64,000 nt of DNA from Solirubrobacteraceae bacterium. GTDB lineage: Bacteria > Actinomycetota > Thermoleophilia > Solirubrobacterales > Solirubrobacteraceae. This document shows positions 11,637 to 27,851 of the stretch, piece by piece. The position numbers were made by a program, and so were the translations under genes. The stretch's first letter is position 1. Each line of letters opens with the position of its first letter. A model generated the notes under the pieces. It did no database searches and had not been told where the DNA came from. It saw nothing but the letters and a program-made list of their open reading frames with translations. The DNA is taken from the NCBI GenBank assembly GCA_024711025.1, contig JANJTP010000051.1:1-64000 (forward strand), in the 5' to 3' direction.

Positions 11637-11644
11637 GCCGCGAA

Positions 11645-11800
11645 CGTTGAACCAGCCGAGTCCCCGAGGAGCCCAACCTCGGGGAGCGGGGGACCCAATG
11701 GCCACCAGCTAGGTGGCCGGGGGCGAATCGTCGCCATCGAGCGGCGTAGCGCGGCCCTTTTCGCGCGAGCCCGACAGCTAACCCCGTAGGCGCTCCAAGA
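11645..11800 (+). promoter_or_regulatory. ydaO/yuaA-type c-di-AMP riboswitch
   Basis: The 5' leader of the NlpC/P60 gene carries the ydaO landmarks in order: stem CCCCGAGG (11662-11669) with CCTCGGGG (11677-11684), then GCGGGGGACCCA (11686-11697), hairpin GGCCACC/GGTGGCC (11700-11718), GGGGGCGAATC (from 11719), and the closing GACAGCTAACCCCGTAGGC (11773-11791). In actinobacteria this class controls cell-wall hydrolase genes and normally turns expression off when c-di-AMP is high. A GAGGGGG ribosome site directly follows, so control of translation or termination is possible. Confidence 0.9.
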
Positions 11801-11812
11801 GGGGGTTTCCCC

Positions 11813-12949
11813 GTGCTGCACCTACGTCGCACCTTCCTGCCATTGCTCGCCCTCGGCGCGCTCGCCGTCACGGCGGCCCCGGCCACCGCGCAGACCGCGG
11901 CCTCGTCGCCGTCGGCCACCGTCGAGTCGGGCGCCGTCTCCCCGTCCGCGCAAGGACCGCTCCATCGCGTCACGGCGAAGAGCCTGAAGGTCGGCGCCAC
12001 CGGTACGAACGTCCGCCGCCTGCAGGCGCTGCTGACCGGCGTCGGGCTCCCGACCGAGATCACCGGCGAGTACGGCTCCGAGACCGCGCGCTCCGTCCAG
12101 CGCTTCCAGTTCGTCTCCGGCCTGCAGACCAGCGGCCTGAGCGGCCCGATGACGCTGAGGGCCCTGCACGCCGCCGCAAGCGCCGCGCACAGCGCCGGCT
12201 CGCGTGGCGGCCTGCGCTTCGGCCAGAGCGTCGTCACCCCCAAGCGCCTTGGCAGCCGCATCCCGGTCGTGCGCGGGATGAGCGGCCAGGACGTGCTGCG
12301 CCTCCAGGACTACCTGCGCCGGGTCCGCGTCAAGGGCGCTCCTCGACCCGACGGCGAGTTCGGCTCGCGCACGCTGGCGGCCGTCAGGCGCTTCGAGCGT
12401 ACGACGAAGCGGCCGGTCGACGGGCGGATGGACGCCGGCGATCTCTTCCGACTGCTCACCGAGGTCGGCGGGGATGCCGCACCCGGCGACCTGGGTGACC
12501 CGGGCGACGCGGAGCTGCCCGCCCCGCAGCTCGCTCCCGGCGACAAGGCCAAGCTCGGCTCCAACGGCCTCGCGATCGCGCCCGAGGACGCGCCGGAGGA
12601 GGTCAAGCAGGTCATCGCGGCCGGCAACAAGATCGCCAAGAAGCCCTACAAGTGGGGCGGCGGCCATGGGCGCTGGGAGGACTCCGGCTACGACTGCTCC
12701 GGGTCGGTCTCCTACGCCCTTCGGGGAGGCGGCCTGCTCAAGAGCCCGCTGCCGTCCTACGGCTTCTTCAAGTGGGGCGACTCCGGCAAGGGCACCTGGA
12801 TCACGATCTACACGAACTCGGGTCACATGTACATGGTCGTCGCCGGCCTGCGATTCGACACGAGCGGTCGCGGCGCCAAGGGCTCTCGCTGGCAGAAGGC
12901 GATGCGTGACCCGTCGAGCTTCAGGGTCCGCCACCCCGCGGGCTTCTGA
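11813..12949 (+). CDS. Secreted cell-wall hydrolase: two peptidoglycan-binding domains plus NlpC/P60-like domain
   Basis: 378 residues from a GTG. Residues 1-26 are a signal peptide ending in AQT. Two PG_binding_1 repeats follow (about 57-117 with LKVGATGTNVRRLQALL, and 152-218 with GMSGQDVLRLQDYL). The C-terminal part from about 265 has YDCSGSVSYAL with catalytic C295 and a conserved H338 in SGHMYMVV, fitting NlpC/P60 endopeptidases. The enzyme would cut stem peptides outside the membrane. Expression is under the c-di-AMP riboswitch just upstream, linking wall cleavage to the osmotic second messenger. Confidence 0.88.
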   Translation: MLHLRRTFLPLLALGALAVTAAPATAQTAASSPSATVESGAVSPSAQGPLHRVTAKSLKVGATGTNVRRLQALLTGVGLPTEITGEYGSETARSVQRFQFVSGLQTSGLSGPMTLRALHAAASAAHSAGSRGGLRFGQSVVTPKRLGSRIPVVRGMSGQDVLRLQDYLRRVRVKGAPRPDGEFGSRTLAAVRRFERTTKRPVDGRMDAGDLFRLLTEVGGDAAPGDLGDPGDAELPAPQLAPGDKAKLGSNGLAIAPEDAPEEVKQVIAAGNKIAKKPYKWGGGHGRWEDSGYDCSGSVSYALRGGGLLKSPLPSYGFFKWGDSGKGTWITIYTNSGHMYMVVAGLRFDTSGRGAKGSRWQKAMRDPSSFRVRHPAGF

Positions 12950-26952: not shown

Positions 26953-27687
26953 TCAGCGACCGGCCGCTAGGCCGCCCGCGCGGCCCGGTGCTGCCACGCC
27001 CAGAGGGCTCTGCGGAGCCCGCTCGCCGGCGGGCAGCACGCCGACCCGCACGCGGCCGGCGGCGACGAAGCGCAGCACCTTCGCGGCGGCGAGCGTCAGG
27101 TCGTAGTGCACGCCGCGGACGAACGGCCCGCGGTCGATCACCGGGACGCTGAGCGTCCGTCCGCGGTAGGTGACGTCTACGAGCGAGCCGCACGGCAGCG
27201 TGCGGTGCGCGAGTCCGATCGTCGAGCGGCGCAGACGGGTGCCGCACGCGGTGCGGCTCCCCGGCTGGCTGTACCAGGTGGCGGTGGCGCCGCGGTAGAC
27301 GGTCGCGACGGTCGTCGGCGGCGCCGTCGCCTGAACGGCGTGGGCGGTGCTCGCCAGTCGCGCGCGGACCTCGTAGCGGCCCGCGCGCGTGCCGCGCCAA
27401 GCCGCCCTGAACGAGCCGTCGCTTGCCGCCTGCGCCCGCGCGATCTCGGTCCAGTCCTGTTCGGGGCGGGCACGGGCCTCGAGAACGACGGCGCGACCGG
27501 CGGCCTCGGCGCCGAGCGTGCCGTTGAGGCTCAGGGCCTTGCCGGCGATCGCCGGTCGCGCGACGAGCAGCGCGTCGCCGATCGCGGTTCCGCCGGCCTG
27601 CTGCGCGCCGGCGAGCGGGACGCACAGCATCAGCGCGAGGGCGCAGGTGCCGACGACGGCAGCGAGGTTGGGGGTTCGCAGGCGGAT
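26953..27687 (-). CDS. Secreted RlpA-like double-psi beta-barrel protein, possible ATC start
   Basis: The frame encodes a beta-rich N-terminal part (FN3-like) and a C-terminal RlpA domain: ATWYSQPGSRTACGTRLRR, LAHRTLPCGSLVDVTYRGR and VPVIDRGPFVRGVHYDLT, with the Asp conserved in lytic transglycosylases of this type. The first ATG (27630) would cut the signal peptide in half. Reading from an ATC at 27687 gives RLRTPNLAAVVGTCALALML, a complete signal peptide, and GAGGA lies six bases before that ATC. I therefore place the start there; CTG 27681 and ATG 27630 are alternatives. The gene lies behind a c-di-AMP riboswitch. Confidence 0.8.
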   Translation of the reverse strand: MRLRTPNLAAVVGTCALALMLCVPLAGAQQAGGTAIGDALLVARPAIAGKALSLNGTLGAEAAGRAVVLEARARPEQDWTEIARAQAASDGSFRAAWRGTRAGRYEVRARLASTAHAVQATAPPTTVATVYRGATATWYSQPGSRTACGTRLRRSTIGLAHRTLPCGSLVDVTYRGRTLSVPVIDRGPFVRGVHYDLTLAAAKVLRFVAAGRVRVGVLPAGERAPQSPLGVAAPGRAGGLAAGR

Positions 27688-27703
27688 CGATCGTCCTCGT
27701 TCT

Positions 27704-27842
27704 CGGCCTACGGGGTGAGCTGACGGGCTCGCGCCGAACGAGCGGCGCTACGCGCAACTGCGCGATTCGCCCCAGCAAGCCTGACGGCTCGCAGTGGGTC
27801 CCCCGCCCTCCACGGTTCGGACCGTGGAGGCTCGGCGTGCGC
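27704..27842 (-). promoter_or_regulatory. Second ydaO/yuaA-type c-di-AMP riboswitch
   Basis: On the minus strand the order of landmarks is as in the first copy: a 10-bp stem (27821-27830 with 27807-27816, loop CCGA), GCGGGGGACCCA (27806-27795), GGGGCGAATC (27773-27764) and the closing block containing GTCAGCTCACCCCGTAGGC (27725-27707). It leads directly into the ribosome site of the RlpA-like gene, so that gene and the NlpC/P60 gene should answer to the same signal. Confidence 0.88.
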
Positions 27843-27845
27843 GAA

Positions 27846-27851
27846 ACCCTA
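27846..27851 (-). promoter_or_regulatory. -10 box of the riboswitch-RlpA transcript
   Basis: TAGGGT on the minus strand (27851-27846), a few bases before the predicted riboswitch 5' end. Confidence 0.4.

Follow-up and report, generated by a model that had tools for sequence, protein, structure and literature searches.

A likely AUC start codon behind a cyclic di-AMP riboswitch, conserved in an RlpA-like gene in most of a Solirubrobacteraceae genus

An RlpA-like gene lies on the minus strand of a stretch of 64,000 nucleotides from a Solirubrobacteraceae bacterium (contig JANJTP010000051.1, positions 1 to 64,000; hereafter the window, meaning the whole stretch that was analysed), downstream of a cyclic di-AMP (c-di-AMP) riboswitch. 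AUC is a codon at which translation is very seldom initiated. We hold with high confidence that this gene encodes a probably secreted wall protein whose translation starts at the AUC (ATC in the DNA) at position 27687, that this start is kept in most of the genus, and that it would take part in a mechanism combining the riboswitch with weak initiation. We infer initiation at AUC from the comparison of relatives, which also establishes, at the level of sequence, the position of the start, its conservation and the complementarity between a riboswitch loop and the ribosome site.

The proposed ATC start gives an apparently complete signal peptide

The gene occupies 26953..27687 (minus strand, stop included) and comprises 244 amino acids counted from the ATC. 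Its beginning reads, on the minus strand, GAACGAGGACGATCG-ATC-CGC-CTG-CGA, with the proposed AUC start codon, assigned by comparison of relatives, at 27685..27687 and the frame end at 26953. Upstream, the frame is closed by an in-frame TAG (27748..27750, minus strand) that sits inside the riboswitch, 60 nucleotides before the ATC. The interval between the two contains no ATG, GTG, TTG, CTG or other ATN codon, ATT and ATA included, and the ATC at 27687 is thus the first possible start after the TAG. A first-pass annotation, made from the sequence letters, had placed this codon six bases from a GAGGA motif, and indeed the Shine-Dalgarno-like GAGGA (27694..27698, minus strand) is followed by six bases and then by the ATC. 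The same annotation had the ribosome site just following the riboswitch; this needs correction in that the site lies within the Rfam match and is likely the 3' strand of a pseudoknot.

Translated from the ATC, the N-terminus reads M-RLRTPNLAAVVGTCALALMLCVPLAGA-QQ and shows what appears by eye, without a predictor, to be a full signal peptide (residues 1-28, 27604..27687, minus strand, cleavage after AGA). The first ATG, GTG or TTG of the frame is an ATG within that signal peptide (27628..27630, minus strand; frame index 19), which we judge to encode an internal methionine; a start there would cost 19 of the 28 residues and leave just MLCVPLAGA. Further downstream, a DPBB_1 domain (PF03330, residues 135-215, 27043..27285, minus strand, E 2.2e-13) scores 50.7 bits, above the Pfam cut-off of 28.8. 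The models of RlpA proper score below their NCBIfam cut-offs (TIGR00413, rlpA, 38.5 against 82.15 bits; PRK10672, 42 against 201), and the protein is therefore classed as RlpA-like, not as RlpA. The gene product is probably a secreted cell-wall enzyme.

Orthologous starts within the genus

The genus set comprised 17 genomes, the window's own included. Homologues at E up to 1e-25 were found in 15 genomes; G003 holds a contig-end fragment with a readable start, G015 just a weaker match to a different gene, and the start region was readable in 16 genomes. The start codon is ATC in 13 of these 16 (G000, G003, G004, G005, G006, G007, G009, G010, G011, G012, G013, G014 and G016), ATT in G002, where no riboswitch match was found, and ATG in two, G001 (with the riboswitch) and G008 (without a riboswitch match). 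The comparison of orthologous starts that had been suggested as a check thus favours the ATC, and none of the readable genus orthologues starts at an ATG aligned with 27630, the finding that would have spoken for the shorter protein.

Within a pair of sister genomes at 100/100 support, G001 reads ATG AAG ATT TTC CTT ATC CGT and G014 reads ATC AAG ATT TCC GTT ATC CGT, so that, as aligned, the ATC occupies the place of an ATG. Among nine close genomes, the 45 nt before the ATC carry 2 variable columns; codons 2-15 carry 2, 3 and 11 variable columns at codon positions 1, 2 and 3, respectively, and 135 synonymous versus 49 nonsynonymous pairwise codon differences. The onset of codon-like variation hence coincides with the ATC in these genomes, and translation seems to begin there.

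The G002 orthologue (L015) reads ATT CGA ATC CGC, 7 nt behind a GAGG, with no nearby standard start.

Translation from the ATG at 27630, or from the next standard codon in relatives, would give a protein with a shortened signal. No standard start precedes this ATG in the frame, and several relatives likewise carry a standard codon (GTG, TTG or ATG) within the signal peptide (index 10 to 25 in ten of the ATC genomes). Against such a start, the nine remaining signal residues would include no charged n-region, and by eye no Shine-Dalgarno-like run precedes the ATG; in G005, G011 and G014, moreover, the first standard codon lies past the signal peptide (index 41, 52 and 52), and the upstream codons 2-15 are under protein-coding constraint in the nine close genomes. 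We regard initiation at 27630 as highly improbable.

A different non-standard codon, either the CTG at 27681 or an upstream near-cognate such as ACG or AAG, is very unlikely to serve as the start. The CTG is in frame two codons after the ATC, three genomes from a different genus probably use CTG as the start (see below), and AAG codons stand before the ATC in the close group. However, the CTG at 27681 lies 12 nt from the GAGGA, 11 of the 13 ATC genomes have no CTG within three codons after the ATC, and in all 13 the ATC is the first ATN or NTG codon after the in-frame stop.

That the codon arose by sequencing error, or that the gene is decaying, has next to no probability, although most of the genomes are draft assemblies: the same codon recurs in 13 assemblies with matched proteins 39-59% identical to that of the window, synonymous change is in excess, and the DPBB domain is intact. 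An error at the codon itself, which the first-pass annotation had named as a possible refutation, is very unlikely given the ATC in 13 separate assemblies.

Start codons at other c-di-AMP riboswitches

The c-di-AMP (ydaO/yuaA) riboswitch aptamer upstream of the gene was matched by the RF00379 covariance model at 27691..27847 (minus strand) with 67.5 bits (E 1.7e-13), above the gathering score of 38. A search with the same model returned 96 sites in the 17 genomes, of which 90 were read; the six unread sites comprise three over the cut-off, one of them reaching its contig end, and three below it. On the basis of similar leaders and initial codons, judged by eye, 14 sites were assigned to the RlpA-like group, 15 to a second gene group and the remaining 61 to neither.

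Standard starts were scored mechanically: an ATG, GTG or TTG had to lie between -15 and +20 nt relative to the end of the riboswitch, and its frame had to stay open for 70 codons or as far as the stretch extended. By this measure, for which no chance rate was computed, all 60 remaining readable riboswitch sites in the genus have a standard start, G016:C195 being too short and outside this count, as do 2 of the 14 sites of the RlpA-like group, in frame in G001 and in another frame in G005. In G005, the GTG responsible stands at -15 and begins a wrong-frame run of 126 open codons, with a third-position G+C of 0.79 versus 0.96 for the frame of the gene.

The window itself contains an internal control, a second c-di-AMP riboswitch at 11644..11808 (plus strand, 70.3 bits), behind which a gene with PG_binding_1 and an NlpC/P60 match below the Pfam cut-off starts at GTG (11813..12949, plus strand). 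In this second gene group, the start is GTG, TTG or ATG in 11 of 15, ATC in G007, G010 and G012, and GTC-ATT in G003. An identical AAGAGGGGGTTCCCC precedes the GTG in some genomes and the ATC in G007, G010 and G012, and TTG and ATG stand after near-identical leaders. The loci with ATC or GTC-ATT (L057, L061, L070 and L049) have leader letters in common with their GTG-starting relatives.

In the wider family outside the genus, the strongest 56 of 72 places were read, 51 of them with the riboswitch motif; 47 of these 51 riboswitch-linked homologues have a standard start by reading and four do not (L212, L213, L217 and L234). A further survey, in which 30 of 36 places were opened and the genes were partly the same, gave 27 with the motif, and among these the same four loci lacked a standard start. 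In another genus of the family, riboswitch-linked RlpA-like genes (loci L252, L253, L255 and L259) likely start, as read from their sequences, at ATC (G091) or at CTG (G095, G099 and G102).

Each genome of the genus holds 3 to 8 c-di-AMP riboswitch matches; for assemblies of 1.2-3.1 Mb this seems a high number, the comparison being with control genomes only. A second homologue of the RlpA-like protein in the window's genome (L002) has a below-cut-off riboswitch match of 36.7 bits shortly upstream (G000:C4:34236-34432, minus strand).

A riboswitch loop complementary to the ribosome site

In the leader of the window's RlpA-like gene, the hairpin-loop strand CUCGUUC (27736..27742, minus strand) is complementary over 7 bp to GAACGAG (27696..27702, minus strand), which overlaps the Shine-Dalgarno sequence and is likely the 3' strand of a pseudoknot. 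Much of the second gene group has CCCUUUUU/AAAGAGGG as the corresponding pair, and a third group has CUCUUUC/GAAAGAG. Across 71 of the 90 sites (of the other 19, 18 lacked the anchor motif and one was too short), the loop/site pairing has a mean score of 14.7 versus 12.8 in 200 permutations (sd 0.28, highest 13.6); within the RlpA-like group it ranks first among the pairings at 13 of the 14 sites. Over these 71 sites, loop and ribosome site covary between gene groups. Because they change together, the pseudoknot seems to form the expression platform in many, though not all, riboswitch groups. The crystal construct described in PMC5393176 shows CUCCUUCG in its loop and, at the 3' end, CGAAGGAG, from which we ourselves take the loop/site pairing to be the known ydaO pseudoknot.

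It could be argued that the ATC is fixed by the structure of the leader RNA and not by a role as a start, as the 45 nt ahead of it are nearly invariant in the nine close genomes and the site strand is able to pair with the loop. Yet the consensus fold, in which pseudoknots cannot appear, leaves the ATC unpaired; G002, without a riboswitch match, still has no standard start; and without the ATC there would be no start ahead of the signal peptide. We give this explanation very little credence. The related idea of an AUC buried in a conserved helix was likewise unsupported by that fold (14 rows, G002 and G008 left out).

Initiator tRNA and infC

Among the tRNA matches and infC loci opened, no changed decoding system was found. 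The initiator-type pattern GGGCTNATNACCC gave 33 matches in the 17 genomes, 30 of which were opened. ARAGORN reported no tRNA, and so no initiator-like tRNA with a GAU anticodon, at the opened GAT matches, those at G002:C227 and G012:C30 being unopened; it reported no tRNA at two CAT matches either. In G000, where 30 of 47 tRNA matches were opened, the sole isoleucine tRNA with GAT does not coincide with an initiator-type match. infC was matched in 15 of the 17 genomes and not in G010 and G013, perhaps owing to incomplete assemblies. The infC loci (L154-L167) show no evident Shine-Dalgarno sequence and CTAGTGCCGGT in most; they are perhaps leaderless, and their likely GTG start differs from the ATC stated for Streptomyces.

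Discussion

Several observations weigh against initiation at a conserved, riboswitch-linked AUC. The starts of G014 and G001 lie 4-6 alignment columns earlier than the others and 2-3 nt behind GAGA, and in the column occupied by ATC in most others both genomes show ATT. On this alignment, that ATT, two codons downstream, might be the start of G014; for G002, its ATT and the ATC two codons further along are both candidate starts. The close group has a weak ribosome site (GAGA). Riboswitch and non-standard start are not strictly tied, since no riboswitch match accompanies the gene in G002 or G008. In G005 a different pairing outscores the loop/site pairing, which is absent from several riboswitch groups, and bases 2-3 of the AUC are mostly paired in some single-sequence folds (0.97-0.99 in G000) and mostly free in others. 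In infC of the genus, a GTG is conserved as the likely start at the 14 loci with a readable N-terminus (that of G016 is cut off). Finally, a tree computed without G003 (16 codons) and with six outgroups picked from family loci puts outgroups beside G000, G005 and G008 with weak support; owing to this weak separation, a single origin of the ATC within the genus is likely, though not proved.

With no standard start at the site and a conserved codon (ATC in 13, ATT in one and ATG in two of the 16 genomes), the gene is a candidate for the class limited by a non-standard start, of the sigR, infC and pcnB type. The pcnB gene of Escherichia coli starts at AUU, a non-standard start that limits expression, and its function differs from that of the wall gene; to our knowledge, it has no riboswitch.

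By analogy, sigR of Streptomyces, with its GTC start repressed by initiation factor IF3, appears to be the nearest model for a wall gene starting at AUC. Both are actinobacterial genes with a genus-conserved non-standard start limiting expression, the minority codon being GTT there and ATT here; sigR encodes a sigma factor, however, has an extensive AGGAGGTG site, comes with no mention of a riboswitch in the part of the source used, and is repressed by IF3 experimentally, where for our gene this is an extrapolation (PMC5472188). According to the same source, infC starts at ATC in Streptomyces and at ATT in E. coli, and so at AUC or AUU natively; that gene is autoregulated through IF3, whereas here AUC stands in a cell-wall gene and infC likely starts at GTG (PMC5472188). 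In Staphylococcus aureus, cvfC1 (AUU) and ccpN (AUA) likewise have conserved non-standard starts with lower reporter yield, and differ in codon, in gene and in an extended Shine-Dalgarno sequence, which is ordinary to weak here (PMC13009471). Start switches to GUG, UUG, CUG and AUU are described in 36 genome triplets, with none to AUC named in the portion of that paper considered (PMC5622118). As for the riboswitch, the ydaO class also precedes the wall-related genes nlpC of Corynebacterium glutamicum and rpfA of Streptomyces coelicolor, and before nlpC it acts most likely on translation; the term 'start codon' is absent from the main text of that paper, which therefore does not treat a non-standard start under this term (PMC9960051). 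Within the open-licence PubMed Central literature, parts of which were consulted, we recognised no riboswitch-controlled AUC start in bacteria.

Drawing on this literature on riboswitches and non-standard starts (PMC9960051, PMC5472188, PMC5622118), we infer a two-layer brake. A response to c-di-AMP, an effect of IF3, low yield, export and enzyme activity are presumed parts of this reading. The riboswitch would expose or hide the ribosome-binding site through pairing of the hairpin loop CUCGUUC with GAACGAG; at an open site, the initiator tRNA would pair imperfectly with the AUC, so that initiation would be slow under IF3 proofreading. Together, riboswitch and weak start codon would keep the yield of a potentially harmful wall enzyme low and capped, and the use of AUC suggests deliberately weak, gated protein production.

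Gene prediction usually assumes ATG, GTG or TTG (PMC5472188), and a gene of this kind would then be predicted too short and without its export signal. A natural AUC start in most of a genus, outside infC, would provide a clean system, and the ATG/ATC sister pair, together with the GTG/ATC pair behind the unchanged leader of the second gene group, offers ready comparisons for AUC initiation and IF3 control. More tentatively, and at somewhat below even chances in our judgement, AUC, AUU and CUG starts may have arisen repeatedly in the family and been kept as a fidelity-gated second brake on wall genes under c-di-AMP riboswitches, with ligand sensing and IF3 jointly setting the dose.
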